DNA of 64,000 bases, from positions 434,001-498,000 of the forward strand of contig NZ_FMWG01000001.1 in the NCBI RefSeq assembly GCF_900102795.1. Reading direction: 5' to 3'. A program made the translations under genes and the position numbers. The notes under the pieces were generated by a model, which saw only the letters and a program-made list of their open reading frames with translations, had not been told where the DNA came from and did no database searches. This document shows, piece by piece, positions 35,043-55,349 of this stretch (position 1 is its first letter; each line of letters begins with the position of its first letter). The stretch comes from Epibacterium ulvae (GTDB lineage: Bacteria > Pseudomonadota > Alphaproteobacteria > Rhodobacterales > Rhodobacteraceae).

Positions 35043-35047
35043 GTAGT
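35043..35047. repeat. Putative 5-bp target duplication GTAGT, left
   Basis: GTAGT here and at 55345-55349 flank the two ends of the Tn7-like element; the match extends further as GTAGTTGTG on both sides. Five bases is the normal Tn7-family duplication. The assignment assumes that the left end carries three extra TG dinucleotides compared with the right end. Confidence 0.6.
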
Positions 35048-35130
35048 TGTGTGTGTGGAACGACACATAAGGTGACACTTATTGACGCCGAGTTGCCACT
35101 TCTCGGCGTCAAACCTGCAATTTTTATGAC
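35048..35130. repeat. Left end of the Tn7-like element with TnsB-type repeats
   Basis: Related 18-19 bp sites are spaced 21-22 bp: GACACATAAGGTGACACTT (35062-35080), GACGCCGAGTTGCCACTT (35084-35101) and GGCGTCAAACCTGCAATTT (35105-35123). A weaker fourth begins near 35128. Sites 2 and 3 create a perfect 11-bp inverted repeat TTGACGCCGAG / CTCGGCGTCAA (35083-35113) that might also form a hairpin in nrdJ read-through RNA. Confidence 0.75.
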
Positions 35131-35345: not shown

Positions 35346-36143
35346 ATGAATGAGTTTGACGAGTTACCCCCGCTCCGTAAGACAACCATATCAGGTCGTG
35401 TTCAAGTCCGACGTGCACGTACCGTCGAGCAAATCCAACGCGCAAAAAAGCACGGTTATGCTAATCTCTTGGAACGGGTGGAGATCAATGACAGATCTTC
35501 TCCTGACTACGTTGTGTCTGAAGTTCTCGTCTTCTTGATGAGGGAAACCAAGACGCACAACAACCGCGCTCTTTTTGACAAGCTCTTTTTCGTTCTGTGG
35601 CAACGCATTAAACGGTCCTTCCCGTGGTACATCCCCGGTCAGGATGGCACAGATGATTCAAGCCAGCTTCAAATGGAAGACATGGTCTTAGATAGCTTGG
35701 GAGCCCTGATTGCGAGTGATCAGGCTGACTATGATGAAGACTTAGACTATTATGAAGTCAGTTTTGACCAGGCCATAAAGTTTGATCGGATAGATGCATG
35801 GCGTTCGGTCATGGGTAACGCCGCAAAGCGTGTTTCAATGACAACTGGTGATGAGGAAGAGCGTCTGACAGCCGAGGTAAAAACTGCACTCACAAAAATG
35901 GCGAGTGATGATTTTGTTGAAAACGAAGAAAAAATTTACCTGAAAGAGTCATTGCGTGCGATTAGCCAACTCCCAGAGAAGGAAAGGGAGGTTATGCTGT
36001 ACAAGATGAAGCAATACCCCATTGAGTCGACTGACCCATCCATCATTTCAATTTCATCAATCCTGAAGTGTACGCCGAAGACTGTTCAAAATCGTCTCAA
36101 GTCAGCGCGCTCCAGAATTAAGAAGATGTTAGGGGAGGAATAA
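35346..36143 (+). CDS. Sigma-70 family RNA polymerase sigma factor-like protein
   Basis: 265 aa. The C-terminal region (about 205-262) is a good sigma region 4: AISQLPEKEREVMLYKMKQY followed by an HTH, SSILKCTPKTVQNRLKSARSRIKKML. The middle part (about 60-140) is acidic and could correspond to region 2, but is diverged. It is the first transposon cargo gene and overlaps the next gene, so it heads the six-gene operon. It might drive transcription of that operon or of host genes upon a signal. It is much longer than standard ECF factors in the N-terminal part. Confidence 0.65.
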   Translation: MNEFDELPPLRKTTISGRVQVRRARTVEQIQRAKKHGYANLLERVEINDRSSPDYVVSEVLVFLMRETKTHNNRALFDKLFFVLWQRIKRSFPWYIPGQDGTDDSSQLQMEDMVLDSLGALIASDQADYDEDLDYYEVSFDQAIKFDRIDAWRSVMGNAAKRVSMTTGDEEERLTAEVKTALTKMASDDFVENEEKIYLKESLRAISQLPEKEREVMLYKMKQYPIESTDPSIISISSILKCTPKTVQNRLKSARSRIKKMLGEE

Positions 36144-36694
36144 TGATGCCCAAGAATCTTACAAAAGAGGATGTCCTGCGTTCGTTCTCCATTGAGGAAG
36201 ATCAGTCCAAGGAAACGCTTGATGCCTACCTTAAGCAATACCCTCAGTTCGCTTTGAATCTTATTGAGCTGTCGCTTGAGCTTGAGCTACTTGAGCCTCG
36301 ATCATCCGACGCAGATGAAGGCGTTGAAACCAACCCAATAGACACATCACAGGTGAAAGCCGCTTTAAGCGGTGAAAATGCCAAAGGGATTGCAAAAGAG
36401 TTAGGATTCCCACGCGCTGTTGTCGCCGCATTTAGAGATAGAGTTTTTGCACCAGAAACGCTGCCTCAGTCGCTAGTGCGCCGAACCGCATCTGCTGCTT
36501 CAATCGGCAAAGCACAGCTTTTAGCTTATTTGTGCATGCCAACGCATATGCCTTCCGGTCTCTCAATGAAAGCGACGGGTAAGCCTGAGGAGATGGAGAA
36601 GATTTCATTTTCAGATTTTGTTGCGGACTTGGGTCTTGATGAGACGCAGAAGGCACGGCTCTACGACGGCGGTTACGACAATGGATCCAATTGA
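36143..36694 (+). CDS. Unrecognised protein, possible partner of the sigma factor
   Basis: 183 aa, acidic, mostly helical in appearance. ATGATG at 36143/36146 follows AGGGGAGGAA; the second ATG has the better spacing, and the first overlaps the sigma-factor stop (TAATG). Residues about 70-95 (AALSGENAKGIAKELGFPRA) look like an HTH. No known domain was recognised. Its place between the sigma factor and the peptidase-helicase suggests it could be an anti-sigma-like protein or a peptidase substrate, as ImmA/IrrE-type peptidases often cleave regulators encoded beside them. That is inference. Confidence 0.6.
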   Translation: MMPKNLTKEDVLRSFSIEEDQSKETLDAYLKQYPQFALNLIELSLELELLEPRSSDADEGVETNPIDTSQVKAALSGENAKGIAKELGFPRAVVAAFRDRVFAPETLPQSLVRRTASAASIGKAQLLAYLCMPTHMPSGLSMKATGKPEEMEKISFSDFVADLGLDETQKARLYDGGYDNGSN

Positions 36695-39600
36695 GCGGGG
36701 TAGACAACGCGCTGACGAGCTTCATAAAGAGATAGTTGCAACTGGCGTTGACCCATCTGACTTAATGGGCATCGCTCTAGCTGCTGTAGGCATTTGCGGA
36801 AAATACGATGTTGAAGTTCAAAAGGCCAAGCCGGGGAGCGCTCCTTTAAAGGGATGTCACGCTTACCTCGACACGGACCTTGCTGTACTTGTCTATGCCG
36901 AAACAGGTGACACTTTTCTTGATGCATTTCATGTTGCTCATGAGGTTGGCCACTTGGAATTTGGAGGCCAAGTCCACACTGACACCGAAATCGAACCGGA
37001 CCCTCTACGGCCGACAGAGGTAGCTTCTGTTGGCGTTGAACGTGTTGTTGATTACGGTCGCCGGCAACGGCGCGAAGTCCAAATGGATCTGTTTGCGCGC
37101 GAGCTACTATTTCCAAGGTCACTTGCTAGGACGATGCACCTAAATGATCTAAAATCGGCGTCTAGTATTTCAGCAGAACTGGGCATTCCATTTGCGGTCA
37201 CCGCAATGCAGATCATGGATGCTATTTTGCTGCCGGTGCGACCTCCGTTCGTAGCGAAAGCACCGACACCCAAGCCCCTCAACGACGTTCAAACCAGGGC
37301 CGCAGAACATCGCGGGTCACCTTTCTTACTTGAAGCAGGTCCGGGGACCGGAAAAACACAAACTCTGGTTGGCCGGATCACGTCATTGCGCGATGAAGGT
37401 GCAGACCCCGAACGGCTGCTTGTACTGACCTATTCCAACAAAGCTGCCGGAGAAATGTTGGAACGCATCACCTCAGCATGGCCGGAGGCCGCAGGCAAGA
37501 TGTGGGTAGGCACGTTTCATTCGTTTGGTTTGGACTTGATCCGTCGTTTCTACGACAAGTTGGGATTGCCGGACAATCCCGTGATGATGGATCAAACTGA
37601 AGCGATTGAGCTTCTTGAAATTGAATATGCACATCTAGATTTGACCCGTTTTCGCGACCTTTGGGATCCCACAGACAAACTACGTTCCATTTTATCAGCC
37701 ATTTCACGTGCAAAGGACGAGGTTGTTGATGCTCAGAAGTACGCTAATTTAGCAACTGCGATGGTGGATGAGATTGATCCGTCGGACGAAGTTCGTAAAA
37801 AGTCAGCACTTATTTGCGAAGAAGTAGCAAAGGTCTACGAGGTCTACGAGCGTCTCAAAAAACAGCGCAACAAGCTAGATTTTGGGGATCTGGTGGCACT
37901 ACCGGTAGGCCTGTTTGAAAGTGACCCAATCGCACGCAGCCTGATTCAATCTGAATATGACCACGTCTTGGTCGATGAATATCAGGACGTAAACCGGGCT
38001 AGCGTTCGCTTGCTAAAAGCAGTTGTTGGAAACGGGGAGAACTTGTGGGTTGTGGGTGATGCGAAACAATCGATCTACAGATTTCGAGGTGCGTCATCGT
38101 ACAATTTGATAAGATTCGATACGGAAGATTTTCCCAACGGAGCACGTGCAGAGCTAACGACGAACTATCGATCAAGCGATGAGATCTGCAAGGCATTCGA
38201 AACCTTTGCCCGCTCTGGAATGCGCAATGCTCCGGCATCATTCAAGGTCGATGCGGCTCGTGGCGCGCTTAAATCAAAACCTCAGTTCATACGTGCACGT
38301 AACAAGGATGACGAGATCGAGGTCTTAGCGAAATCTATCCAGGCGGTTCATCAAACTGGTGTGCCTTACCAAGATCAAGCAGTCCTGTGCAAAGGAAACG
38401 AACGATTGGCAGCTCTCGCTGCTGGCCTGGAGGAACGGGGGATTCCCGCCCTCTTCCTTGGGCCATTGTTTGAACGCGATGAAATACGAGAATTAATGTC
38501 ACTGCTCTCGCTCGCGGTTGAGGCACGACCCATGGGTTTGGTCAAAGTAGCCTGCATGAAATCGTTCGAAATGGAACTTAATGATGTTGAGATGATCGTT
38601 TTAGCGATGCGGGAGGCAAGCATTGATCGTTTAGGTTTGTGGCCTGAGTTTGATACGACCAACTTGGCACTTTCCTCTACCGGCCGCGTTGGCTTCGAAC
38701 GGCTTCAAGCAGTTTTCAAAGATATAGGGCCTGCGACAGATCCTTGGGACCTTCTGACCAGGGTTCTTCTAGATGACACGCATCACCTTGCTGATCTGGC
38801 CAAAGGAACCACTGCTTCGAATAGGAATGCATCAATTGCCATTTGGCAATTCATGAACTTTCTGCGGACCTTTCCGAGAGAGGGGGATGGATATCCCATC
38901 CAGAGATTGATGAACCATGTTCGACGCATCGCGTTGTTGGCCGATGACCGTGATTTACGGCAGTTACCAGATGCGGCGCAGGAGGTAGATGCGGTACGCC
39001 TGATGACCATGCATGGCAGCAAAGGATTAGAGTTCCCTGTAGTCCATGTTCCAAGCCTGACAAAGGACTCGATCCCAATTGGGTTTAGCGGATTTACCAA
39101 GCCGCTAGACCCACCAGATGGTATGATCGAGGGAGTTGCTGGTCCGGGGATCGATGCCTTGCGAGAAGGGCATGAAGAAGAACAAGAATGTTTGTTTTTT
39201 GTTGCGATGTCTCGCGCCGAAGACCAACTCTATCTTTATGCGGCGACTGAAACGATCGCGAAAGGCAATACTTCCGGGCGAAACCGACCTTCTTCTCCAT
39301 TCGTGTCTCTGCTTGGCGACACTATTGAAACACCGCCTGTCGATGGAACAACTGCTCGAACATCGAGAAACGCTAGCCCAATTGGGGTAAATTTTGATGC
39401 ACCATTGGAATTGTATCCTGCGATTCCAGATCAATATATGGCTTGCCCGAGGAAGGTCTTCTATACTCACATCATGAAGCTGGGTGGGCGGCGGCGAGAA
39501 ACACCGTTCATGCTCATGCATAACACTGTCCAAAAATTTGTAGATACGGTCAAAACCATGCATGGGACTGCTCTTGCTTGGGCAAATGTAGCAGGCCACT

Positions 39601-40127
39601 TTGAACAGGCATGGGTCGAAGAAGGTCCGACAGAGAACCCGTACTGCAACGACTACAAATCGATTGCCCATGATCTGTGTCAGTTCTTCATTGCTAACCA
39701 TGCAGGATTGCAAGGTGTGGAACCGCCCAAGTTGGAATACCACTTTGGCGATTGTTACGTCGTTTTGCGCCCTGACGAAGCACATACCATTTCATCCCCG
39801 TCAAAGACTCTGAGACGAATCAGGACAGGTCGTATGCAGCGTAAGCCGCTCGACAATCTTGAAATTTGTATGTTGTTTCTGGCATCAGAGATTGACCCAA
39901 GTATCTCCGGAGCCGAGATGTTGTTTCTAACAAGCCACGATCTTTTTCCAGTGGAACTCAAAACTCAGATGGCTAAGAACCGGGTTTCCAAATTGCACGG
40001 CTTAGGTAAGGCTTTCCATCAAGGTAGGTTTGAGACCAACCCAGATGATCGCTGCCCAAACTGCTCAAACTACTTTGTCTGCGGTAAATTACCGGCCGGT
40101 ACGGTGCGTAAAAAAAATCTTAATTAA
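36681..40127 (+). CDS. ImmA/IrrE-type metallopeptidase fused to UvrD-like helicase with Fe-S C-terminus
   Basis: 1148 aa. Residues about 60-190 hold a zinc metallopeptidase of ImmA/IrrE type (HVAHEVGHLEF, HEVGH at 87-91). Residues about 200-870 form a superfamily 1A helicase: Walker A GPGTGKT at 220-226, DEYQD at 433-437, TNYRSSDEI, and MTMHGSKGLEFPVVHV late. The C-terminus has C922 plus C1125, C1128 and C1134, the cysteine layout of AddB/Cas4 iron-sulfur nucleases. The catalytic D-ExK of such a nuclease looks degenerate (RRIRTGR where DYKTGR is usual). The start overlaps the previous gene by 14 bases. Likely a DNA-processing effector or sensor with a protease switch. Confidence 0.85.
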   Translation: MDPIERGRQRADELHKEIVATGVDPSDLMGIALAAVGICGKYDVEVQKAKPGSAPLKGCHAYLDTDLAVLVYAETGDTFLDAFHVAHEVGHLEFGGQVHTDTEIEPDPLRPTEVASVGVERVVDYGRRQRREVQMDLFARELLFPRSLARTMHLNDLKSASSISAELGIPFAVTAMQIMDAILLPVRPPFVAKAPTPKPLNDVQTRAAEHRGSPFLLEAGPGTGKTQTLVGRITSLRDEGADPERLLVLTYSNKAAGEMLERITSAWPEAAGKMWVGTFHSFGLDLIRRFYDKLGLPDNPVMMDQTEAIELLEIEYAHLDLTRFRDLWDPTDKLRSILSAISRAKDEVVDAQKYANLATAMVDEIDPSDEVRKKSALICEEVAKVYEVYERLKKQRNKLDFGDLVALPVGLFESDPIARSLIQSEYDHVLVDEYQDVNRASVRLLKAVVGNGENLWVVGDAKQSIYRFRGASSYNLIRFDTEDFPNGARAELTTNYRSSDEICKAFETFARSGMRNAPASFKVDAARGALKSKPQFIRARNKDDEIEVLAKSIQAVHQTGVPYQDQAVLCKGNERLAALAAGLEERGIPALFLGPLFERDEIRELMSLLSLAVEARPMGLVKVACMKSFEMELNDVEMIVLAMREASIDRLGLWPEFDTTNLALSSTGRVGFERLQAVFKDIGPATDPWDLLTRVLLDDTHHLADLAKGTTASNRNASIAIWQFMNFLRTFPREGDGYPIQRLMNHVRRIALLADDRDLRQLPDAAQEVDAVRLMTMHGSKGLEFPVVHVPSLTKDSIPIGFSGFTKPLDPPDGMIEGVAGPGIDALREGHEEEQECLFFVAMSRAEDQLYLYAATETIAKGNTSGRNRPSSPFVSLLGDTIETPPVDGTTARTSRNASPIGVNFDAPLELYPAIPDQYMACPRKVFYTHIMKLGGRRRETPFMLMHNTVQKFVDTVKTMHGTALAWANVAGHFEQAWVEEGPTENPYCNDYKSIAHDLCQFFIANHAGLQGVEPPKLEYHFGDCYVVLRPDEAHTISSPSKTLRRIRTGRMQRKPLDNLEICMLFLASEIDPSISGAEMLFLTSHDLFPVELKTQMAKNRVSKLHGLGKAFHQGRFETNPDDRCPNCSNYFVCGKLPAGTVRKKNLN

Positions 40128-40212
40128 TTTTTACCGACTCTCAGAAATTGAGTCGATTGACCCATTGCAAGCAGGGACAGGCAGTTCGTGCATAACATAA
40201 AGGGTCATTCAA

Positions 40213-41142
40213 ATGGCAGACGAAAACAACAATTCTCCAATCATGGAGTTCGACGATATCGGTGACGCTGTACGCGGTCATCGTCCTTTGCATAAGGCAC
40301 GTAAGTACCGTGTTGATGTTGCAGACGAAACTTTGAAAACCACAAAGATCAAACTTGATGATCCTATCCCGCTGGGTCGTCAAATTTTGGAGGCTGTTGG
40401 GGCACATCCTGTAGAAGAACATGGCTTAATCGCTGTCTTGGGCAATGGCGACTTTGAAGACATCAGCCTCGATGAGCCATTCGATCTTCGCGGGCGTGGC
40501 GCAGAAAAGGTCATCTACTTCATGACCGACCGTAGCTTCAAATTCAAAATCGATCATCGTGACTTGGAATGGGGCAAATCGCTCATCAGTGGCTTCGTTC
40601 TCAAAAAATTGGCGTCTCTGCCCGCCGGGTACGATCTTTACATGGAAGTACCTGGAGGTAAGGGCCACGATGAATTGATCGAAGACTGCGCTGTTATCAA
40701 CTTGGGTGAACGCGGCGTTGAACGTTTCATCACCGTTATGGCGGAAACGACGGAGGGGCTTGAGCCCCTCCCACCCAAGGATCGCGAGTATCTTGAAGCA
40801 GAAGGGTTTTCGTATGAATTTCAAACTCACGGCGGGCAAGCTGGGGTTATCATCAAGGATTTTCCACTTCCAGAAAATGCCTATAACAATGATACCGCCG
40901 ACTTGCTAATCCTATTGCCACGCGGTTATCCGGACGCCCGTCCAGATATGTTTTTTGTCGATCCATGGCTCAAGTTAAAGAAGACGGGCGCAGAGGCACG
41001 GTGCGCGAATGTACCACATGTCTTTGGTAATCGCACATGGCAACGCTGGTCGCGTCATAGCACAGCCTGGCGTCCAGGGATTGATGGTTTGCATACAATG
41101 GTGGCACGCGCTCGATGTGCGTTGGAGAAAGGCCATGTATAA
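40213..41142 (+). CDS. Two ubiquitin-like domains fused to an E2-like conjugating domain
   Basis: 309 aa. Two tandem ubiquitin-like (Multiubiq-type) domains lie at about 31-108 (YRVDVADETLKTTKIKLDD, ending EKVIYFMTD) and 109-178 (FKFKIDHRDLEWGKSLISG, ending ERFITVMAE). Residues about 185-309 form an E2/UBC-like domain of the prokaryotic E2 'E' type, with LLPRGYPDARPDMFF (235-249) and TWQRWSRHSTAWRPGIDGLH. C264 is a possible catalytic cysteine but is not certain. The stop overlaps the E1 gene start by eight bases. It is expected to supply both the modifier and the conjugating enzyme, with processing by the JAMM protease next door. Confidence 0.85.
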   Translation: MADENNNSPIMEFDDIGDAVRGHRPLHKARKYRVDVADETLKTTKIKLDDPIPLGRQILEAVGAHPVEEHGLIAVLGNGDFEDISLDEPFDLRGRGAEKVIYFMTDRSFKFKIDHRDLEWGKSLISGFVLKKLASLPAGYDLYMEVPGGKGHDELIEDCAVINLGERGVERFITVMAETTEGLEPLPPKDREYLEAEGFSYEFQTHGGQAGVIIKDFPLPENAYNNDTADLLILLPRGYPDARPDMFFVDPWLKLKKTGAEARCANVPHVFGNRTWQRWSRHSTAWRPGIDGLHTMVARARCALEKGHV

Positions 41143-42541
41143 ACTTGAATTGGATGCAGTCCTACAATCTGCTCATTTTGAACTGATCGAAAGGCTATTG
41201 GATACGTCTGATGGGTCAGAAGCTTCTGCGTATATGTTGTTTGGAAATTCAGAAATCACAGCCGACCCTTGGTCTGGAGCACCTCGTTTGCGTGTTGTGT
41301 CCCACAAATTTGTCCCAATCGCAGAAACAGAGAAAGTCAGCTCGTCAGCTCGTCATGTGACTTGGTCGACTGGCGGATTTATGCGCCTTCTATCTAAGGC
41401 CAAGTCGGAAGGTCTAATTCCAGCATTGGTTCATACCCATCCGCGTGGCGTGGCCCGTTTCTCAAGTCAGGATGACAAAAACGAGAAGGGCCTCGCTCGT
41501 ACGGCGTTTGTTAAAGGTGTAAAAGGGCTTCTCAGCATCGTTATCGACGGAGGACATAGTATCGCAGTACGGTTATGGACCCCTGATGGCGGATGTCATG
41601 AAATCAAGCGCGTAACGTCTGTTGGGCCAAAAGTTCGATTTTTGACGAGCCTTTCACTCGATACGGCAGATAACCGAGTGCTGGATCGTCAGGCACGTTT
41701 GTTCGGCTCGTCCTTCAACGATGTAATTAGTCAACTTCGCATAGGCGTGGTTGGAGCTGGCGCTACTGGTAGTGCTGTAGCGACGCTTTTGATCCGGTTA
41801 GGCTTTGGACGCGTCTTAGTCGTAGACAAGGATGTTCTAGAGCTGAGTAATCTAAATCGAGTTCATGGTGCACGCCGTTGCGATGTGCAGGCAGAACTCA
41901 CCAAAGTAAAAAATATTGCACGTTTGGCGGCTGAAACTAACTTGGGTCCTAAAGTGATAGCGTTGCAATCATGGGCCGGTTCGCAAGAATCCCGTGATGC
42001 ATTGAAGTCCTGTGATGTTGTATTTGGTGCGACCGATGATCATTCGGGGCGGATATTCTTGAACCGTTTGGCACGCTTTTACAGCATTCCCTTGATCGAT
42101 TTGGGGTTGCGCATGAAGCGCCATGAGGATGGCCATGTTGACGTGTTTGGTCGCGTCACAACGTTTGTTGAAGGGCATCGGTGCTTGATGTGCCATGGGA
42201 TAATTGATCCTCAAAAGGCAGCAGATGAAGCGCTTGAGCGCGATGACCCTGACAATTTTCATAAGCTAAAGGAAGAAGCTTACATCCTAGGTGGCGGGGA
42301 TCCTTCACCTGCAGTTGTGACTTTTACCACAGAAGTGGCTTGCATGGCTGTAAATGAACTTGTCGCCGCGCTGACTTCGTTTCAGGGCCCACATGGTATG
42401 ACCCCGCACAGGGTCCGCAGATTTCATGCCCAAGACGATAGGTTCCCTTCTGCCTCGCCTAGTCCTGATTGTCCGATTTGCAGCCAAACCGATGTACTTG
42501 GTCGCGCAGACGTGGAGCCCTTTTTAGGGACAGTGGGGTAA
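41135..42541 (+). CDS. JAMM/JAB protease fused to ThiF-type E1 activating enzyme
   Basis: 468 aa. The N-terminal JAMM domain has E29 and the full zinc motif H100-x-H102 ... S110-x-x-D113 within HTHPRGVARFSSQDD. The C-terminal E1-like domain starts near 200 with IGVVGAGATGSAVATLLIRL (GAGATG 207-212) and D231 for ATP. Zinc pairs CLMC (350-353) and CPIC (446-449) are intact. E1 would adenylate the ubiquitin-like C-terminus and pass it to the E2; the JAMM part would trim precursors or remove conjugates. Start chosen at 41135 because it overlaps the previous stop (ATGTATAA) and the extension upstream is not domain-like. Confidence 0.9.
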   Translation: MYKLELDAVLQSAHFELIERLLDTSDGSEASAYMLFGNSEITADPWSGAPRLRVVSHKFVPIAETEKVSSSARHVTWSTGGFMRLLSKAKSEGLIPALVHTHPRGVARFSSQDDKNEKGLARTAFVKGVKGLLSIVIDGGHSIAVRLWTPDGGCHEIKRVTSVGPKVRFLTSLSLDTADNRVLDRQARLFGSSFNDVISQLRIGVVGAGATGSAVATLLIRLGFGRVLVVDKDVLELSNLNRVHGARRCDVQAELTKVKNIARLAAETNLGPKVIALQSWAGSQESRDALKSCDVVFGATDDHSGRIFLNRLARFYSIPLIDLGLRMKRHEDGHVDVFGRVTTFVEGHRCLMCHGIIDPQKAADEALERDDPDNFHKLKEEAYILGGGDPSPAVVTFTTEVACMAVNELVAALTSFQGPHGMTPHRVRRFHAQDDRFPSASPSPDCPICSQTDVLGRADVEPFLGTVG

Positions 42542-42545
42542 GACC

Positions 42546-42941
42546 ATGCTAGTCAAATTGCTCAAGGTGCTTCGGTGGCTGAGGTTGCTGAAAACGGATT
42601 TTGTTGTGGTTGAGCAAGAAGTGTTTCCGGATGAGGGGAGTGTTAGTCGAGGAGACCTCGTTGTTGTTCGCTCAGGTGAAGTATCGAAATGGGCGTGCAT
42701 GCGTTGCCCTGGGGGATGCGGTAAACAGATTTCATTGTCGTTGAATCCGGCTCGGCGGCCAAGATGGGGAGTATCCATTGACTACTGGCTCAGGCCAACT
42801 TTGGCTCCGTCGATCCATCAGAAGAATGAATGTGGTTGCCATTTTTTGCTGCAAAATGGGAAGGTGAGATGGTGCAAAGATGGTCGTCCAAAAGGTCAGG
42901 CCAATTCGCCAGCGAAAACAGGTGCACGGCAAAGGACCTAG
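42546..42941 (+). CDS. DUF6527-like small zinc protein
   Basis: 131 aa. Metal-binding residues C51, C54, C58 (CMRCPGGCGK) and C96, C98, H99 (CGCHF) fit the DUF6527 pattern, as do the LAPSI stretch and a closing NGKVRWC. This family is repeatedly found at the end of bacterial ubiquitin-like operons; its role (metalloenzyme, adaptor or E3-like) is not settled to my knowledge. It starts four bases after the E1 gene and is the last gene of the operon. The extreme N-terminus is basic and hydrophobic. Confidence 0.75.
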   Translation: MLVKLLKVLRWLRLLKTDFVVVEQEVFPDEGSVSRGDLVVVRSGEVSKWACMRCPGGCGKQISLSLNPARRPRWGVSIDYWLRPTLAPSIHQKNECGCHFLLQNGKVRWCKDGRPKGQANSPAKTGARQRT

Positions 42942-43201
42942 TCTTCAATATTCCCAGTCTAGCAACGACAGAAACCAAAGGACGATGCATATGTCGTTAA
43001 AACCCAAGTGCTGTACCTATTCGTCAAAGTCTTCTTCGGGAAATCTGCACCGCACCGTTAGATCCGCCGGCCAATGTCCGGTAAGTTGCAATTCAGTGAG
43101 TGTCTTCTTGAGAAGATGAAGCTTGATCACTGGTCAGTGTATTTCCTTAGAGGTTGAGTTGGTTATAAGAGGCAACAAACAAAAGCGTATTTGTGCTTAT
43201 C

Positions 43202-43747
43202 ATGAGTAGAGAGAGCAAATTTCTAAGTCTGGTGCTTCGGCACAAACCTGAAGAAATTGATCTTCAGCTTGATAATCATGGGTGGGCTCGCGTTGACGAG
43301 TTGCTGCGAAAGCTTAAGAAATCCGGTCGGAAACTCAGCCACGATGAGCTTATTGAGATTGTCGAAACCAGCGACAAGAAACGCTTTACTCTGTCTGAGG
43401 ACGGAAAGCGTATCAGAGCGGCACAAGGTCATTCGATTGAGGTAGATCTTGGTCTGAAGCCTCAGCAGCCTCCATGCGAGTTGTATCATGGAACGGCCAG
43501 CGCGAACTTGGATGCGATCTTTTCAAATGGTCTGTTGCCGGGGAAGCGTCAGCAGGTTCATCTGTCTCTTGATCCAGATACCGCTGAACGTGTCGGGCAG
43601 CGCCATGGTCGGCCGGTTGTCTTGCGCGTTTAAGCTCAGCGGATGTTTGACGACGGGTTTGAGTTTTTCCGCGCCGACAATGGTGTCTGGCTTACCGATG
43701 CGGTGCCTGCATGCTATTTGGGCTTCGGTCAGATGTCAGAGCAGTAG
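43202..43747 (+). pseudogene. kptA: RNA 2'-phosphotransferase (KptA/Tpt1) interrupted by an in-frame stop
   Basis: The frame reads as KptA from [19 protein letters not shown] through [26 protein letters not shown] and GRPVVLRV, then hits TAA at 43631-43633. In the same frame it continues AQRMFDDGFEFFRADNGVWL, the normal KptA C-terminus, to TAG at 43745-43747. Without the stop it would be about 181 aa, the usual length. KptA transfers a 2'-phosphate from RNA to NAD. Truncation removes the last beta strands and probably abolishes activity, unless the stop is read through. A GTG at 43193 is an alternative start. Confidence 0.9.
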
Positions 43748-43900
43748 AGCTAGGCGGATTTACGAGCGGTCGCAAAAGTCGCAGGCGCAGATGCAATAAG
43801 TTAATAGTCGTTTTGATTATTAACTAACTCATTGAATTAATATTATAAATTATGAATTTTGCACTTGATTTATCTTGTGCGTCTCCCCCGGGATTGTATT

Positions 43901-44378: not shown

Positions 44379-45155
44379 ATGATGTCGTCACCAGAATCTG
44401 GCCCCGTGGCCGACGATCAACAACAATCTAGCCCGAAATCGGAACTTGAAGCACGGCAATCCTATGTCGATTGTTCCCAGGGAATCGTGAGGGTTCCAAT
44501 GGGCAGTGCCGGAACCAGAAAGCTCAGCAAGAGATCGCGTCAAAGTAGCCGGGGAGGTATCCCATACTTTAGCCCAAAGTTGCAAAAATATGTGACTCTG
44601 AAAACTGAAAGCCACCTAGAGGGGGCTTGTCACTATGTCGCAATGGCGGATCCGAATGTTGTGCACATCTGGGATCAGCCCAAACCGGTGAAATACTATG
44701 AATGGGATGGTCGCAAGGCAGAATACACCGCAGATGCACTGATCGAATACCGATCCGGCTTCAAAATCTTGGTTGAAACAAAGCCGTCTGCGATCGCGAT
44801 TAAACGACAAACGGAACTCAAGCTAACGCGGGTTGCGGAATTTGTGCCTGCTGACTTTGCCAATCAGGTTACGCTATTCACGGAAAAGAGCTGCCCGAAG
44901 TGGCTCGTCGCCGATGCACGTCGCCTACATGAGTTTCAAAAGCATCCTGACCCTGAAGCGGATGACGCGATCCGCGAAGTAATCGATCGCCTGAGTGGTA
45001 CGACCACTTTGGGAGCACTGGCGGGGAAGACTGACCTGGCTGGCCGAGGCTTCCGGGCAGCATTTCGTGCCGTTTTTAGGGGTGAAATCCAACGGACAAA
45101 TGCGGGATCGCTAACCGTTAGCAGCTCTGTTTTCAAAGCGGAGGCAGCAGCATGA
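44379..45155 (+). CDS. tnsA: TnsA-type transposon endonuclease
   Basis: 258 aa with AGGAGG upstream. The restriction-endonuclease fold residues are in place: E81 (TESHLEGACHY), D119 (EYTADALIEY) and E133-x-K135 (ILVETKPS), matching TnsA E63, D114 and K132. In Tn7, TnsA cuts the 5' strands so that the element moves by cut and paste. The first 45 residues are polar and not conserved-looking. It overlaps tnsB by four bases (ATGA). Confidence 0.9.
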   Translation: MMSSPESGPVADDQQQSSPKSELEARQSYVDCSQGIVRVPMGSAGTRKLSKRSRQSSRGGIPYFSPKLQKYVTLKTESHLEGACHYVAMADPNVVHIWDQPKPVKYYEWDGRKAEYTADALIEYRSGFKILVETKPSAIAIKRQTELKLTRVAEFVPADFANQVTLFTEKSCPKWLVADARRLHEFQKHPDPEADDAIREVIDRLSGTTTLGALAGKTDLAGRGFRAAFRAVFRGEIQRTNAGSLTVSSSVFKAEAAA

Positions 45156-47293
45156 AAGTTGCACCCATTTTCCGCATCTATCCGCATGACAAGGTGGACT
45201 ACAACGGAGCAACTTGGCGAGCGTTCGCGCACGGTCCTAACGGCGTCACACTTCGCTGCAGTGACAATCCCGAGGTGTTTGACACCATATCCCACGAAAA
45301 GTTGCGGCGCCTGTTAAAGGCTCCGCATTTTAAGATTTGGCCGGGGCACTATTCCCAGAATTCGGCCCGTCTTCGGGCACTGGGAACAGAGGAGTTGATC
45401 GCTGATCAGCCTCTCTGGCAGCAGCAAAAAATCCGGGACCGGCTGTTTTGTATTCAAAGATGGTTCACCGAAGAAGATGTGGGGAGAGTGAAGCGTACTC
45501 CGCTCAACGCTAAACCATTCATCACTGCATTAGATATCGAAATGATGAAAAGATGTATTGGAAGGACGCTTCAGCACAAGAAACGGCAAACCGGACAAAT
45601 TGTAGAGGTAACCTTTGGCCCGTCCTTTGATACCCTGATGAGGTGGGTCAGGAAGTATGAGAAGTCGGGCTACAACCCTCTCAGTCTCAAGGATGGCAGA
45701 TGCAATTCAGGCAATCACAATCGAAAGTTCTGTGATGAAACATATGCGTTCATAGACACTCAGATTCTGGCATATGCGTCTCCGGAAAGGCGTTATGCAA
45801 ATGAAGTTGCCTTTGAGACGCAGCTTGCAATCGATGACATGAACGAAGCTCGTCTTGAGGTGGGTCAAAACCAACTCGGTCGGCCCTGCGCTAGGCAGAT
45901 CGAGCGGTATATATCAGAGCTTCCACCCTTCCTTGTAAAATGCGAACGCGAAGGCATAGATCGCGCACGAGGCATTTTCAACTGCTCGTCGACTGGTCTT
46001 GAAACACTCTTGCCATGTGAGCGTTTCGAGATGGACGGTTGGAAAGGCGACGTAATGCTTCTGCTTCATGATGCAGGAATATCAAGTAAACTGCCGCCCG
46101 AGGTTTTACAGAGAATTCCCAGAAGCCGTGTCTGGGTTTATGTCGTCATTGATCATGCCACACGCTGTGTTGTCGGGCTTCGTGTTGTGCTGAATGGCAG
46201 TGCAGATGAAACAGTCCGTGCCCTCGAGATGGCAACCCGCGACAAGACGACGATATCTGATGCTGTCGGCACGACTTTTAATTGGGTTGAAGGAGGCGGA
46301 TTCTCAACAGTCGTTTCCGATCAGGGCAGTGAATTTGCAAATGAGCAATTCGAGACGGCAGCAATTTCAGCGCTCGGTGCGTACGAAAGAAACCCTGCTG
46401 CCGCCCCATCTCTTAGGGGCGTCAATGAAAGGCTCTTTGGGATTTTTTCAACCAAGATCACCCCGATGATGAGTGGTCGCACCTTTGGAAACATCTTTGA
46501 ACGGGGCGACATTGATCCGGCTTCGACCGCCGCCTTAACGCCGGAACAACTTCTGCGGATTCTGATTTGGTATGTTGTCGATATCTATCACCGGACCCCT
46601 CACGCAGGTATCGGGTACGTTGCTCCCTCAGTCAAATGGGCCGAGCTTACCAAGGAGGTGGGGACATCCGCGCCGCCGGACGGCTACCGGATGCGTGCGG
46701 CATTTGGAGAGATGATCACCCGTCAGGTTGACGGTACCGGTGTCCTTGTGAATGGGATTCGGTATACAAGTCCGAAGCTAAGAAAATTCTTCATCGACAA
46801 TTATATGTGTGACGTCGATATTCGTGTTGATCCTTACGACATTAGTTGGGTTGTTGTTCGCGTCGATGACAACTGGATTGCGGCATATTCTACCATTCCT
46901 GATCTTGAAGGGGTGACATCCGAGGAATGGGCTGAGGCCAATCTCGCGAAAAAACGAAAGGGGCAGGCGCAGTTTGAGCGCGACCTGCCAGCCATTCGAA
47001 AAGCAATTGCAGCCATCAGAAAGATCAACGGGGATGCTGCAGCTCTGGTGGGTCTAACTCCTAAGAGGTTGACTGCGGATTACATAAACCAGTTGGAAGA
47101 GGAGCTCTTCAATGGTGAAGAAGTCATCCCGTGGCGCGATCCGGAGCCAGTTCCTGATGTTGGTCAGGTTTTCACTGGCGGTATGCCAACCGGTCAACCC
47201 AAACAGGGTGAGAATGATCTAGAGTCTCCGATCGTCGAAGCTCCAAAGCCGTCAGGCCTGAAGCCCAAATGGACTCTGGAGGGCGGAGAATGA
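45152..47293 (+). CDS. tnsB: TnsB-type DDE transposase
   Basis: 713 aa. Integrase-fold catalytic residues are D295 (FEMDGWKGD), D390 (VVSDQGSEF) and E426 (RGVNERLFG), giving DD(35)E spacing. An N-terminal region of about 290 residues should bind the end repeats; a C-terminal Mu-type beta-barrel follows, and the tail ends in a proline-rich stretch that in Tn7 contacts TnsC. It cuts the 3' strands and joins them to the target. Overlap with tnsC is four bases. Confidence 0.94.
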   Translation: MKVAPIFRIYPHDKVDYNGATWRAFAHGPNGVTLRCSDNPEVFDTISHEKLRRLLKAPHFKIWPGHYSQNSARLRALGTEELIADQPLWQQQKIRDRLFCIQRWFTEEDVGRVKRTPLNAKPFITALDIEMMKRCIGRTLQHKKRQTGQIVEVTFGPSFDTLMRWVRKYEKSGYNPLSLKDGRCNSGNHNRKFCDETYAFIDTQILAYASPERRYANEVAFETQLAIDDMNEARLEVGQNQLGRPCARQIERYISELPPFLVKCEREGIDRARGIFNCSSTGLETLLPCERFEMDGWKGDVMLLLHDAGISSKLPPEVLQRIPRSRVWVYVVIDHATRCVVGLRVVLNGSADETVRALEMATRDKTTISDAVGTTFNWVEGGGFSTVVSDQGSEFANEQFETAAISALGAYERNPAAAPSLRGVNERLFGIFSTKITPMMSGRTFGNIFERGDIDPASTAALTPEQLLRILIWYVVDIYHRTPHAGIGYVAPSVKWAELTKEVGTSAPPDGYRMRAAFGEMITRQVDGTGVLVNGIRYTSPKLRKFFIDNYMCDVDIRVDPYDISWVVVRVDDNWIAAYSTIPDLEGVTSEEWAEANLAKKRKGQAQFERDLPAIRKAIAAIRKINGDAAALVGLTPKRLTADYINQLEEELFNGEEVIPWRDPEPVPDVGQVFTGGMPTGQPKQGENDLESPIVEAPKPSGLKPKWTLEGGE

Positions 47294-48291
47294 GCGATTT
47301 GAGCAGAGAGGAAACTCTGGCAAACAGCGCTGATCGCATGGTTCAGCTCGGCAAATTGTTTGTGCGCCATGATCGGTTTGTCGATCTTGAACAGCGGATT
47401 GCTGCCTTGGCCAGGCAGCGGCGTGCTGAACTCAAATTTGGGGAGATCAGGCGGCAGAAGGGTCTTTCGGTGATCGGCGAGTCTGGTGCGGGTAAATCAG
47501 AAGCACTTAAGAAAATTCGTCAAAACTACTGTGTGCCGCGCAAAAACGCGCCCGATGAACGCGTCGGTGAGTTTGTAACGGTCGAAACACCTTCACCGGC
47601 AACACTGAAGTCAACCGGCATCGCAACACTGGAAGCCCTGCAGTTTGATATTGTGGGAAAACTAAGTGCGCCTGAACTTTGGAAGTTGGTGCGCCATCAT
47701 CTCGCAGAGCACAAGGTGTTCTTTTTGCATTTTGACGAGGCTCAGGACTTCATTCTAAACCAGTCTGGCCGTGAAGCGAGCAGCGTGATCAACACGATCA
47801 AGAGCCTGACCCAATCTGAGACCTGGCCGGTTTCGGTTATATTTTCAGGTAATACCGTTCTGGCCGATATTCTGGACAGTGACTTTCAGCTTGGACGGCG
47901 GCTTCCACCCATCCATTTTGAAAATCTGGCACCAGAAGCCGACCTGGATGATGTTGAACACATCCTGTCACAATATCTTGGTGCTGCGAAGCTGGAGTTT
48001 AAGCCGTCCACGGAGATGAGCGATTTCTTGGCAAGGCTGATAGTCTCTGCTTCGGGGCAGCTTGGTCTGGTTTTCGAGTTTATTCTGGAAGCGATACAGC
48101 TTGTCTTCGACGCCGGTAGAACAACTCTGGAGACAGGTGATTTCAAAGAGGTCTATCGACATCGTACCGGAGCCGTGGATGGCGCTAACCCGTTTGTTGC
48201 GGCCGATTTCAAAAGCATCAATACGCGGGTCGTTTTGGAAGGGAAGCTGGTCAGGAAAGGGGGGCAAAATAAGCCCTGGGCATTGTCATGA
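47290..48291 (+). CDS. tnsC: TnsC-type AAA+ transposition regulator
   Basis: 333 aa from ATG 47290, which overlaps the tnsB stop as ATGA and has GGAG upstream. Walker A is GESGAGKS (63-70) and Walker B FLHFDEAQD (146-153). The length is close to the short TniB/TnsC forms and shorter than Tn7 TnsC (about 555 aa). It links the target-site protein to the transposase and gives target immunity in related elements. Confidence 0.92.
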   Translation: MSDLSREETLANSADRMVQLGKLFVRHDRFVDLEQRIAALARQRRAELKFGEIRRQKGLSVIGESGAGKSEALKKIRQNYCVPRKNAPDERVGEFVTVETPSPATLKSTGIATLEALQFDIVGKLSAPELWKLVRHHLAEHKVFFLHFDEAQDFILNQSGREASSVINTIKSLTQSETWPVSVIFSGNTVLADILDSDFQLGRRLPPIHFENLAPEADLDDVEHILSQYLGAAKLEFKPSTEMSDFLARLIVSASGQLGLVFEFILEAIQLVFDAGRTTLETGDFKEVYRHRTGAVDGANPFVAADFKSINTRVVLEGKLVRKGGQNKPWALS

Positions 48292-50132
48292 GGCGAGCGA
48301 GACTAGGGTTAACTCTTCCAATCGGGCGAAATGAACCAGCAGTAGCTTACGCCTCTCGGTTGGCTGCCTTAAATGGCTGCTCCAGTCTCTGGGCGTTCTG
48401 CAGTCTGGTGGGGCTTTCCGCTTTGAAGCTCTCGCGCGCTGACCCAGAGGAACTGAGCCGCCTTTCTGATCTGTCGGGTACAGTCGTCGCGGATTTGGCG
48501 CGGTTCTCCATTCGGACGAATACACGCGCCACACGTACTCTTGGAGGTCAAATATTTCCGAACAAAGATATCAAGATTCAAACCCAGTACATCTGCCCAA
48601 AGTGCGTTCTGGAAGCCGCCGATGATCGCGAATGGTATCATGTTCCCCCCGATGTGTTTTGGTATCTTGATTTTGTGCGAACCTGCCCGAAACACGGATT
48701 GTTGCTGGTCCCAATGCCAGAGCAGCAGGTCGGCTGGTTTCCATATGATTTTACGGCCCGTTTGTCGCAGGCTCAGATTGGGAGAGAGACCCTGATTGGT
48801 CTAATGACACATGCTCCAACCAGAGTAGATGAATTCTCTATTGCTTCATTCTCCGGGAACACTGACAGCACCTGGCTCGCTGGCAGCAGTGCCTATGCAG
48901 TGTCCCGTGCGAGCGAGAGACTGGGTTGCATAGTTGAGGGATTCAGATCTGCCAGGCAGTTAAGTCGTCAAGAACTAGCCAGGCTGGCAGATGTTGGCTT
49001 TGAAGTGCTTTCAAATGGGCCGGAATCTCTGCGACGCGTGCTGGAGGAACTCATAGCGCAGCGCGGTCGATCCAGCCTGCGTAAAACTTTCGGTGTGTTC
49101 TTTCATCTTATGGATGGGAAAATGGGTGACGCAATCCCAATGGTCCGGGCTGTTCTCAGAGACGTCACTCTTGAGAATTTCGTAATACACCCGGGTGACA
49201 AACTACTTGGCGAGGTGTGTACGACACGAAGGTTTCACACCCTTACGTCCGCCTCCGATCTGACCGGTGTACATCCTGTGAAGCTTGCGAATGTGCTGAG
49301 GTCGGCAGGTCTTATGGCTGAGATATCTGCGTCAGATCCCATCATGATCGAAGCAGAGCCAGCTGAAGAGATGCTTCGAAAGCTGTCATCCTCGGTACTC
49401 ACAAAGGATGCGTTGAGTTTCCTCGGGCTGCCCTGGCGGCACTTGATGAGCCTTCAGGATTCCGGATTGATTGCGCCGGTTAATCCAGCCTGTAGAGGGC
49501 AATACATGTACTGTCTTCATGAACTGAAACACCTGCGGGACGCGATGTGTAAAAGCGCTCGCGTATTATCGAGAGAAAGCGCGGATCTTGTGCCTGTCTA
49601 TAAGGCTGCAAATCAATCTGTTTGCAGTATCAGTGAAGTCGTAACACTACTGACTTCCGGGAAACTTCAGGACGTCGGTCTTGTTGGAGGCGTGCAAGGT
49701 TTTGATGCTATACGTGTCGATCCCGCCGAGGTTTTTGAGGCACTGCCAGCTTACCGGGAAGTTACCGATGCAATGACACGGGAAGAGCTTCTGAAGCATT
49801 TCGGCGTCTGTGGGAAAACACTGGCCTTCCTGCTGCGTGAAGGTCACTTTGATGAGTTCCGTACCCGATGCAGGCAGTCTCGAAAGGTGCGCTCATATAT
49901 AACTATTTCCAGCGTTGAACGGTTTTCTGGAACCTACATCAGCCTCAGAAACCTGGCCCAGGAAATGCAAATTTCAGCACGCAATCTCAGCTATCTGATC
50001 AAAGGGGCCGGCTTGTATGAATTGCCAGTGCCGGAAAAGTGCCGAGGGAGATTTTTTCGGCGTGAAGACGTGCTATCTGGAAACGAATTAACGGGCTTGA
50101 ATAGCTCAAATAAAACAGGAGGCAGCCTTTGA
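48288..50132 (+). CDS. tniQ: TniQ/TnsD-family target-selection protein
   Basis: 614 aa. The N-terminal TniQ domain starts LTLPIGRNEPAVAYASRLA and has zinc ligands C103, C106, C133 and H136 (CPKC ... CPKH). The long C-terminal part has helix-turn-helix-like segments near 505-530 (ELLKHFGVCGKTLAFLLREG) and 550-575 (LRNLAQEMQISARNLSYLIK). This long form is like TnsD, which reads a fixed chromosomal site; the location of the element suggests that the site is the 3' end of nrdJ. It overlaps tnsC by four bases. Confidence 0.88.
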   Translation: MRRARLGLTLPIGRNEPAVAYASRLAALNGCSSLWAFCSLVGLSALKLSRADPEELSRLSDLSGTVVADLARFSIRTNTRATRTLGGQIFPNKDIKIQTQYICPKCVLEAADDREWYHVPPDVFWYLDFVRTCPKHGLLLVPMPEQQVGWFPYDFTARLSQAQIGRETLIGLMTHAPTRVDEFSIASFSGNTDSTWLAGSSAYAVSRASERLGCIVEGFRSARQLSRQELARLADVGFEVLSNGPESLRRVLEELIAQRGRSSLRKTFGVFFHLMDGKMGDAIPMVRAVLRDVTLENFVIHPGDKLLGEVCTTRRFHTLTSASDLTGVHPVKLANVLRSAGLMAEISASDPIMIEAEPAEEMLRKLSSSVLTKDALSFLGLPWRHLMSLQDSGLIAPVNPACRGQYMYCLHELKHLRDAMCKSARVLSRESADLVPVYKAANQSVCSISEVVTLLTSGKLQDVGLVGGVQGFDAIRVDPAEVFEALPAYREVTDAMTREELLKHFGVCGKTLAFLLREGHFDEFRTRCRQSRKVRSYITISSVERFSGTYISLRNLAQEMQISARNLSYLIKGAGLYELPVPEKCRGRFFRREDVLSGNELTGLNSSNKTGGSL

Positions 50133-51209: not shown

Positions 51210-52109
51210 TCATGATGCGAAGGCCTCGTTCTCGGTGATCTTTTCAAATGCGGGTAAGAACGCGTCATGGTGCAGCGATAAGTAACGCGTGATGCGCTCG
51301 CAGCGCATCAGTTTCGCGATGTAACCACGGGTCAGGACCAAATTGAGATGATCGGCTCCGTAGCTGTCTTCAACAAGGCGGACTTCGCGTTCCAGGTTTG
51401 CAGACTCGCGCTCCATAAGCTCCAGTTGCTCGCGCGAAATCCCTTTGATCTTTTTCGGCGTTGCCGCCGACACCAACTGGTTTTCGGGCGTCGCGGCCAG
51501 AAGCGATCGGGCATAGTTGATCGTGAACTTGTTCATGGCGACCATGAGTTGCGCCGCTTCAATCTGGCGAATTGGCTTCATTTTCTTCAGAATCTGAAAC
51601 CCGGTCAAAGCCACTTGTTTGTCTTTCAGCAGTTCCGCCGCCTCGTCGCAGATACCATCCAGAAGCTGGCGTTTCTGTTTCAGGGTCTTGATGTTGACAT
51701 TAAGCGCGCTCGCCAGACGGGCCTCCGGCACGCCAAGAGAGAGGGCTCTCAGGATCATCTTGTGCTCTTGAATGGTCGCGAGACGAGAGATGCGTTTGTT
51801 GTAGGTGAAGGCTTCATCGTCGGTGGAGACAAGACATCGCGCATGTGTCTGCCCCTGGTCCTTCAAAACCTCAAGGCGCAGATGCCCATCAAGCAATGTA
51901 TATTGACCAGCGTTGTAAGGGTCGCGGGACACGACAATAGGTTCAACAAGGCCAATTTCTAGAACAGATGCCGCGATCTGTTTGAACTTAATGCTGGCCT
52001 TCTTTTGCGGGGTGACCACGTAGAGTGGCGCGATCTCCTCGAATGGAAGCGTTACCAGCTCCTGTTCAAAAGCAGCTGCAACCGTCCGTTCTTCCCGGGT
52101 CACCGACAT
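51210..52109 (-). CDS. ParB/RepB-like protein, second of a pair
   Basis: 299 aa. The N-terminal ParB-like domain (about 25-100) has VEPIVVSRDPYNAGQYTLLDGHLRLEVLK; the middle resembles the plasmid partition RepB family. It overlaps the first ParB-like gene by ten bases and is third in the leftward unit recombinase-ParB-ParB. Whether it binds DNA, hydrolyses CTP as true ParB does, or acts as a nuclease is not visible from sequence. Confidence 0.8.
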   Translation of the reverse strand: MSVTREERTVAAAFEQELVTLPFEEIAPLYVVTPQKKASIKFKQIAASVLEIGLVEPIVVSRDPYNAGQYTLLDGHLRLEVLKDQGQTHARCLVSTDDEAFTYNKRISRLATIQEHKMILRALSLGVPEARLASALNVNIKTLKQKRQLLDGICDEAAELLKDKQVALTGFQILKKMKPIRQIEAAQLMVAMNKFTINYARSLLAATPENQLVSAATPKKIKGISREQLELMERESANLEREVRLVEDSYGADHLNLVLTRGYIAKLMRCERITRYLSLHHDAFLPAFEKITENEAFAS

Positions 52110-53008
52110 GCGGACGCCTCCTCGGACTGAGTTAGGCGGTCTGCAACTTGTTTTGGCAGACTGGCCAACCCTTCGGCGCGAAGCAATGTGACGAAGTTTT
52201 CGTCAGCCATCAGCGTCTTGAGCGCTTGTGTCAGAAAAAGCAGTTCGCTCCGCGTTGCGCCTGCCTTTCTCAGCAGCACCTTCTTTTTCTCGACATCGTT
52301 TTCATAGGTCTTGAGCAGAGTCTCGACAGAAAGACTCTTGCGTGGCCGTTCGACAGTGTTCGCGCGACCCTTGCCGTGTTTCTGGCGGGCTTCAACAAGA
52401 CGCTTGGCTGCAAGGAGTCTTCCGCCGCGCAGGAGCTTTTTCTCATAAGCCTGCCGGAGAACACGTTGCACGCCGACGTCATCGGCGTCCGCTATGTCAA
52501 CGGCAACACTGACCGGAATCTTACCGCTCTCCACTGCACGCAGGAGGCGGTGTTCATGACTTTCCAGAAGCTTTATCACGCCATGGACATACTTCTTGGA
52601 CAGCTGGGTCTTGGCGGCGATTTCAGCTTCAGAGTATCCCTTTTCCTTGAGGCGCCCAATATCTCGGAGCAAATCCAGCGAATGGTGCTGCCTGCGCGCC
52701 AGATTTTCTACCAAGCTCATTACAAGGCAGTCTTCGCTGCTGGCATTGATGACGATTGCCGGGATTTCAGATTGGCCAAGAACCTTGAATGCTTCCAGTC
52801 GGCCCTGGCCGCAGACCAATTCGTATACCGGCTTGTCTCCGTCTTCAGTCTCACGCGCCGCAACCGTAATGGGTCTTTTCAACCCAAGCTCCGCAATGTT
52901 CGCAGTGATCTCATCGAACACCTTTTTGTTCCTGAGCCTTGGGTTGACCACAGTGATTGCATCGACGGGAACAAGAACAGTGTGCTCGACTGGTGCGTAA
53001 TTCATCAC
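52100..53008 (-). CDS. ParB/RepB/Spo0J-like protein, first of a pair
   Basis: 302 aa. ParB-type N-terminus with LVPVDAITVVNPRLRN and VCGQGRLEAFKVLGQSEIPA, then the HTH-like KGYSEAEIAAKTQLSKKYVHGVIKLL. The start overlaps the recombinase stop by four bases (ATGA), so the genes are translated together. No ParA ATPase is encoded nearby, which argues against ordinary partition and for a role with the recombinase. Confidence 0.83.
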   Translation of the reverse strand: MMNYAPVEHTVLVPVDAITVVNPRLRNKKVFDEITANIAELGLKRPITVAARETEDGDKPVYELVCGQGRLEAFKVLGQSEIPAIVINASSEDCLVMSLVENLARRQHHSLDLLRDIGRLKEKGYSEAEIAAKTQLSKKYVHGVIKLLESHEHRLLRAVESGKIPVSVAVDIADADDVGVQRVLRQAYEKKLLRGGRLLAAKRLVEARQKHGKGRANTVERPRKSLSVETLLKTYENDVEKKKVLLRKAGATRSELLFLTQALKTLMADENFVTLLRAEGLASLPKQVADRLTQSEEASACR

Positions 53009-55230: not shown

Positions 55231-55344
55231 GAGTTGCAAGTTACGTGTCGGGAAATGGCAAGTTAGATGTCGGCGCTATCAGGAAGCCCCACAAAACAAG
55301 GGGGTTCCAGTCGCAAAAAGTGTCACCTTATGTGTCGTTCCAGA
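55231..55344. repeat. Right end of the Tn7-like element with TnsB-type repeats
   Basis: Read on the minus strand: terminal site GACACATAAGGTGACACTT (55318-55336), identical to the left terminal site, then GACATCTAACTTGCCATTT (55253-55271) and GACACGTAACTTGCAACTC (55231-55249). The inner two are 22 bp apart. The extreme terminus reads TCTGGAACG, differing by one base from the expected TGTGGAACG. Confidence 0.75.
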
Positions 55345-55349
55345 GTAGT
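55345..55349. repeat. Putative 5-bp target duplication GTAGT, right
   Basis: Matches GTAGT at 35043-35047 on the other side of the element. Confidence 0.6.

Follow-up and report, generated by a model that had tools for sequence, protein, structure and literature searches.

Gene content of the locus

The stretch of DNA considered here, i.e., 64,000 nucleotides of Epibacterium ulvae (contig NZ_FMWG01000001.1, positions 434,001 to 498,000; hereafter the window), carries an operon of six genes, P1 to P6. Its front half (P1-P2-P3) includes a sigma-like protein and a peptidase-helicase fusion and precedes a back half (P4-P5-P6) for ubiquitin-like (Ubl) protein conjugation. Comparison across loci identifies the front half, with its sigma-like protein and two candidate cognate promoters, as a real, conserved and optional regulatory part of Bub-type operons. 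The six open reading frames (ORFs) were confirmed at 35346-42941, all on the plus strand and overlapping or nearly so. A first-pass annotation of this DNA had described such a tight, same-strand set, and its ORFs and domains were confirmed, with the starts of P3 and P5 corrected. The features of the operon are as follows.

35346-36143, plus strand: P1, sigma-70-family-like protein of 265 amino acids, with a conserved N-terminal extension (about residues 1-45), region-2-like helices and region 4 at the C-terminus
35936-35963, plus strand: internal promoter-like element TTACCT-N17-CGATT (10 of 11 positions), inside the P1 gene, 180 bp before P2
36143-36694, plus strand: P2, helical protein of 183 amino acids with a core (residues 65-132) that resembles XRE/helix-turn-helix (HTH) domains; proposed to be an inhibitor and the substrate of the peptidase
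36681-40127, plus strand: P3, 1148 amino acids, with an ImmA/IrrE peptidase (about 36801-37214), a UvrD-type helicase (about 37278-39080) and a RecB-type nuclease-like domain (about 39432-40124)
40131-40158, plus strand: promoter-like element TTACCG-N17-CGATT, candidate P1 promoter upstream of the Ubl gene, conserved across loci
40159-40212, plus strand: leader of the Ubl mRNA, a hairpin with the ribosome-binding site in its closing stem (fold z in the window -2.9; covariation in relatives)
40213-41142, plus strand: P4, two ubiquitin-like (Multi_ubiq) domains fused to an E2-like (Prok-E2_E) domain, by Pfam
41135-42541, plus strand: P5, JAB (JAMM) peptidase fused to an E1-like ThiF domain (Prok-JAB and ThiF), starting at ATG 41135
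42546-42941, plus strand: P6, a DUF6527 protein by its domain match

P1 and P2 overlap by 1 base and P2 and P3 by 14 bases, and a gap of 85 bp separates P3 from P4. The start of P3 is most likely ATG 36681, which replaces the mechanical ORF start TTG 36618; four plasmid-borne P3 homologues begin at the matching position. For P5, the mechanical start ATG 41009 likewise most likely gives way to ATG 41135, so that P5 overlaps the end of P4 (the family searches with P5 ran from 41129, two residues longer).

The Ubl half is of a kind already known, and its proposed control by the front half is the addition. P4 contains two Multi_ubiq stretches (2.8e-24) fused to Prok-E2_E (5.8e-42), P5 combines Prok-JAB with ThiF (DUF6791-ThiF in the other back-half variant), and P6 matches DUF6527 with 83 bits (cut-off 23.6) and may bind zinc; a literature search on DUF6527 found no papers. 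By its gene content, i.e., a multi-Ubl protein, an E2-like domain, a JAB-E1 fusion and a small zinc-finger-like partner, the back half is a type 6e/Bub operon with predicted conjugation activity. As described, type 6e operons combine a multi-Ubl protein, with an E2/RWD-like domain or a third Ubl, and an E1 with a JAB or other N-terminal domain (Iyer et al. 2006, PMC1779556). We equate them with the Bub operons that PMC13373217 cites from Gong 2025 and Ye 2026.

Coupling of the front half to ubiquitin-like modules

When the whole of P3 was used as a query, UvrD-type helicases were matched in 146 of 148 genomes, and the ImmA part and P2 were used instead. A scan of a species-genome collection with the ImmA part yielded 173 relatives, the best 80 of which were examined with locus profiles made from five starting loci, two or three per back-half variant. 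In all 80 loci, P1 and then P2 precede P3, with gaps between P1 and P2 and between P2 and P3 of -59 to +4 bases, one broken copy excepted. A Ubl and E1 module lies downstream of P3 in 76 of them, 75 by profile and one (L065) by Pfam, which recognised a Multi_ubiq protein, a JAB domain just under its cut-off and ThiF. In three others (L047, L067, L094), the contig ends inside P3, so the downstream side is unreadable. At L056, P3 is broken at 552 amino acids and no Ubl genes were found by the profiles, but a second locus of that assembly, L072, is intact.

Since these loci had been picked by likeness to Bub-linked proteins, a survey with the P2 profile served as an independent test. Strong matches (E 9.5e-17 or better) came from six genomes in a sample of 398 across the phylum, and each of the six lies in a Ubl locus. 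Eight more matches (E 0.0018 to 0.0095) were partial, spanning 51-66 positions of larger ORFs, and were attributed to chance. In what appears to be the same draw of 398 genomes, 15 contain Multi_ubiq at E up to 0.001, 13 of them over the Pfam cut-off, and the front half is present in 6 of the 15, the window included. It was also found in two of 11 other Ubl genomes in a class sample of 385. Among 148 related genomes, Prok-E2_E occurs in five including that of the window, and none of the other four has the front half; Prok-E2_E was not found in the 17 other genomes of the genus that were searched. Some contigs of the phylum, class and relative samples also occur among the best 80 loci.

No intact P1-P2-P3 set was seen apart from Ubl genes wherever the downstream side was readable in the best 80 loci and the phylum sample. 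The partnership is thus one-way: the front half requires the back half, and the back half does not require the front half, which in the loci examined is an optional regulator seen only with Ubl modules. The front half had been regarded as fixed, and finding the two halves apart had been named as what would speak against a single system. It indeed accompanies the Ubl genes in every readable locus; Ubl operons lacking it are nevertheless common, and the halves were found apart in that direction only.

In three plasmid examples of such operons, a divergent ImmA gene with small partners is present instead. Among 25 control Ubl loci, three (L174, L179, L191) have another UvrD-type ORF nearby, scoring E 1e-24 to 1e-41 against the P3 profile, as compared with 1e-283 or better for P3 itself.

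By tblastn against plasmids, 89 records contain the ImmA part, 77 contain P1 and 180 contain P4. The four records that were read out, i.e., Roseovarius, Acinetobacter, Mesorhizobium and Leptolyngbya plasmids, share an identical six-gene order, which rules out a chance arrangement. The 80 loci belong to Pseudomonadota (76), Planctomycetota (2), Myxococcota (1) and Verrucomicrobiota (1), and one further plasmid locus with the six-gene set is cyanobacterial. Viral contigs gave 71 pattern matches, none related to the system.

Several back-half types occur with this front half: Ubl2-E2/JAB-E1 as in the window, Ubl3/DUF6791-E1, Ubl3 with a separate E2 and JAB-E1, and others. On a quickly built tree of 66 P3 proteins, some branches of which are long, the type of back module changes six times, one above the minimum, versus a mean of 22 after shuffling.

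Two promoter-like elements

The gap at 40128-40212 had been suggested to hold a second promoter, and a conserved two-box promoter-like element does lie there. The element, TTACCG-N17-CGATT, was first seen in an alignment of P3/P4 junctions. Scored by the best site between 60 bases upstream and 120 bases downstream of the P3 stop, it is exact in 72 of 87 loci and matches at 10 of 11 positions in 13 and at 7 of 11 in two. With eight other spacings (13-16 and 18-21), most loci score 6-8 of 11, and 10 of 11 was reached once at 14 and once at 16; the chance of 10 of 11 or better is about 0.001 per locus (arithmetic, assuming even base use). Since some contigs among the 87 had been reached twice, near-copies were removed, after which the element is kept in 64 of 66 loci, although the median identity of P3 is 50%. 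It was not found in the 25 Ubl loci that lack the front half (674,778 strand-bases scanned). Such conservation points to the front half as a switch for the tagging genes, probably thrown upon DNA damage or invasion.

A second copy lies within the P1 gene, at the codons Tyr198-Arg199...Ala205-Ile206. Among 92 loci, 66 have it exactly, 22 at 10 of 11 and three at 9 of 11, and one lacks it; 88 thus carry it at 10 of 11 or better at the same codons, including the window (10 of 11). Because conserved residues explain part of this motif, the free codon positions were tested against the codon use of each locus itself. The motif-keeping choice prevails throughout: T before Tyr198 in 61 of 64 cases (21 expected), TAC in 57 of 57 (30 expected), GCG in 61 of 61 (21 expected) and ATT in 60 of 63 (18.5 expected). 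Of 43 P1 columns tested, Arg199, Ile206 and Ala205 are the most constrained, and Tyr198 is fifth. The constrained base in Arg199 is the G right after TTACCG, and the same G is 91% conserved at the junction. Codon choice maintains this second element inside the P1 gene.

Between the junction element and the Ubl start, the mRNA of the window and its relatives forms a predicted hairpin. In the window, its stem covers AAAGGG, and the mean z of 64 leaders is -3.0 (simple letter shuffle). In the Pseudomonas/Acinetobacter group (13 sequences), 22 alignment cells have paired changes, versus 7.0 in shuffles, none of 500 of which reached that number. Pairing holds in 94.6% of cells, versus at most 47% when it is slid. 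The closing stem of the Roseovarius group (11 sequences) holds an AAGGA site and hardly varies. The hairpin masks the ribosome-binding site of the Ubl gene in the window and in the Roseovarius group, perhaps providing a second, translational level of control.

The proteins of the front half

P1 has a sigma-like fold. The Pfam match of the window protein to sigma region 4 is weak (22.6 bits, cut-off 25.7), and it remains under the NCBIfam sigma cut-offs (best E 1.4e-6). Region 4 was matched at E up to 0.1 in 45 of 52 P1 family members, and its fold agrees with that of known sigma factors at a root-mean-square deviation of 2.1 Å over 66 residues. The first-pass naming of P1 as a sigma factor agrees with these findings, and sigma action is predicted. 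P2 has no Pfam domain, and its profile matched the PDB sequences once, at E 0.53, which was taken as chance.

In P3, Pfam recognises Peptidase_M78 at residues 41-178 and UvrD from residue 200 onward. The C-terminus contains a RecB-type PD-(D/E)XK-like domain (PDDEXK_1), which the first-pass annotation had not named; it is over the Pfam cut-off in all eight homologues tested and reaches 18.5 bits in the window (cut-off 22). Among 87 full-length homologues (five short or broken copies excluded), the ImmA/IrrE (M78) peptidase signature, i.e., HExxH and the downstream Glu132, is invariant, as are the helicase motifs GPGTGKT (Walker A) and DE(Y/F)QD. Cys922, Cys1125, Cys1128 and Cys1134 are invariant as well, in a pattern that we take to be that of Fe-S helicase-nucleases. 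In the putative nuclease motif III, the columns of which we presume to be catalytic from the general motif, Arg replaces the expected Asp in 70 of 87 homologues and the expected Lys in 60 of 87. Because this motif looks degenerate, the nuclease-like domain is probably dead and would bind DNA without cutting it.

Relation to known systems

Extracytoplasmic function (ECF) sigma factors are paired with anti-sigma factors. The front half resembles such pairs in the fold of P1, in the 17-bp-spaced, -35/-10-like element and in a partner gene that overlaps the sigma gene. It differs in that P2 is unrecognisable as an anti-sigma factor and in that an element is located inside the sigma gene and not before it.

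Type 6e/Bub operons share with the present locus the Ubl/E2 and E1 proteins, the small DUF6527-type partner and, in some cases, a location on mobile elements, and both described back-half variants occur with this front half (PMC1779556; PMC13373217). In contrast, UvrD and a sigma factor are absent from the text of Iyer et al. (PMC1779556) as consulted, and the parts of PMC13373217 covered contain neither "ImmA" nor "helicase", and UvrD only as a repair gene. The front half goes unmentioned in those parts, although the tables of Gong 2025 and Ye 2026 may list it. Literature searches, judged by the titles listed, retrieved neither sigma-factor control of bacterial Ubl conjugation nor a set of irre, UvrD and ubiquitin; the main Bub papers may mention it.

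According to the portion of PMC13373217 covered, 544 Bub operons have been counted, 219 of which carry CapW or CapH+CapP and 59 CapK+CapS, all regulators that respond to DNA damage. A regulatory role for the front half is supported by the frequency of such regulators. These also adjoin CBASS and other operons (PMC13373217), and the CapP peptidase is activated by single-stranded DNA (PMC10904395). P3 carries an ImmA-type peptidase signature, and the HTH likeness of the neighbouring P2 is weak. Here, however, the peptidase is fused to a helicase and a nuclease-like domain, a sigma-like protein is added, and the set was seen only with Ubl modules in the loci examined. The PprI/IrrE-DdrO system of Deinococcus also governs transcription through a metallopeptidase activated by single-stranded DNA, as CapP is, but works via a repressor and lacks a helicase fusion, a sigma factor and conjugation genes, as far as described in the consulted part of PMC10904395.

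A model for front-half control and its alternatives

The overall mechanism, control of the conjugation genes by the front half, is likely. In the scheme that we infer, P3 would be the sensor, engaging damaged or foreign DNA through its helicase and its probably dead nuclease domain, and this engagement would activate the fused ImmA peptidase. The peptidase would then cut P2, which otherwise keeps P1 inactive, and the freed P1 would guide RNA polymerase to the two TTACCG-N17-CGATT promoters. The one inside the P1 gene would yield more P2 and P3, i.e., feedback, and the one at the end of P3 would drive expression of Ubl-E2, JAB-E1 and DUF6527. The conjugation enzymes would tag their targets, with stress response or phage defence as the output. 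We give somewhat better than even chances to a type 6e/Bub operon under its own sigma-factor switch, triggered by DNA through cleavage of P2 by P3. The fuller picture, a self-contained, sigma-driven DNA-stress response with Ubl tagging as its output, one promoter within the sigma gene and another before the conjugation genes, and translation gated by the hairpin, is about evenly balanced. This variant brings its own sensor, switch and two promoter candidates and, if the model is true, a sigma factor would tie DNA damage to bacterial ubiquitin-like conjugation, as the two are tied in eukaryotes.

Several observations weigh against this model. A region 2 in P1 is suggested by its fold and not by sequence matches, and Foldseek with P1 gave no significant match (best E 0.39). 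P2 is not a recognisable anti-sigma factor, and profile comparison with zinc anti-sigma domains came out empty: when a zinc-less anti-sigma domain was considered, the P2 N-terminus, aligned by hhalign to 24 zf-HC2 domains, scored a probability of 0.17%, with 60 column-permuted controls reaching up to 8.7%. The HTH likeness of P2 is weak, and P2 may act on DNA rather than as an anti-sigma factor. In L197 the junction element has a spacing of 16, and L199 lacks it. Upstream of P1, the element is not enriched (mean best score 7.23, versus 7.18 in random windows) and occurs at 10 of 11 within 400 bases in three of 92 loci. The rest of the genome has no excess of it either, with 44 sites at up to one mismatch versus 50 in the reversed control. 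Given these two null results, the candidate regulon is confined to P2-P3 and the Ubl genes.

Possible, if tentative, is a reading in which P2 is a CapH/DdrO-like DNA repressor that P3 cuts as CapP cuts CapH, and P1 is an activator needed by the derepressed operon. Such a role gains room from an inverted repeat, TGTCAG...CTGACA, that precedes P1 by no more than 300 bases in 8 of 92 loci (L038, L047, L049, L071, L083, L086, L096, L100), all in or near the Roseovarius clade. The repeat may be a candidate P2 operator or part of a divergent neighbour gene.

It is doubtful that TTACCG-N17-CGATT serves as a binding site, for P2 or some other factor, or as a housekeeping promoter that descent has fixed. 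With two per locus, the sites could act as operators, but the boxes are unlike each other and not palindromic, their spacing is fixed at 17 bp, and the junction spacers vary while the boxes hardly do. The absence of the element from the Ubl loci without P1 also speaks against this explanation.

Equally doubtful is that the front half is itself an effector. In this reading P3, like UvrD-nuclease defence proteins, would attack incoming DNA, P1 and P2 would only regulate it, and the Ubl genes would be a second weapon of the operon. P3 does resemble defence-linked helicases and has kept its helicase motifs and four Cys residues. PADLOC matched P3 to the DRT-associated helicase and GajB models, in both cases via the UvrD core only, and P5 via the E1 core only. 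However, the degenerate look of nuclease motif III is at odds with an attack on DNA, and the failure to find the front half without Ubl genes would be odd for a free-standing weapon. Gabija was considered and set aside: P3 is flanked by P2 and the Ubl gene, with no GajA beside it.

Quite improbable is that the P3 peptidase acts on P1, with its N-terminal extension as a pro-segment and P2 as a chaperone or scaffold; in 49 sequences Arg22 is invariant and Leu10, Gly17 and Tyr20 are nearly so, and residues 1-45 lie mostly outside the stretch matched to known sigma factors, but the argument is one of arrangement, and the ImmA/IrrE substrates in the cited papers, as far as consulted, are HTH repressors.

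Mobile element and neighbouring genes

A Tn7-like element of about 20.3 kb (35043-55353) carries the operon as cargo; it has 25-bp inverted ends at 35056-35080 and 55318-55342 and a flanking direct repeat, GTAGTTGTG, at 35043 and 55345. Its Tn7-like genes at 44379-50132 encode TnsA-like (under its cut-off), TnsB-like, TniB and TniQ proteins. An empty site was found in a genome of the same genus, where the ribonucleotide reductase gene is directly followed by sequence like window positions 55345-55468. Among the loci compared, the only other six-gene locus near TnsABC-TniQ homologues (27-35% identity) is L083 (1-4351).

Just after the operon, at 43193-43799, lies a KptA/Tpt1-like RNA 2'-phosphotransferase gene. 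Its profile match breaks off at position 153 of 177, and a second ORF, which overlaps it in another frame, continues, so the gene looks truncated or frameshifted. Further inside the Tn7-like element, 51210-54561 contains two RepB/ParB-like genes and a large serine recombinase gene. In two of the four plasmid records, an AbiEii-type nucleotidyltransferase and a DUF6088 partner are encoded beside the six genes (L038, 5911-7540; L040, 2208-4084). In a Sideroxydans metagenome-assembled genome (L113, 3625-8449), a second, different Ubl-E2/JAB-E1 module is located immediately before the six-gene set.

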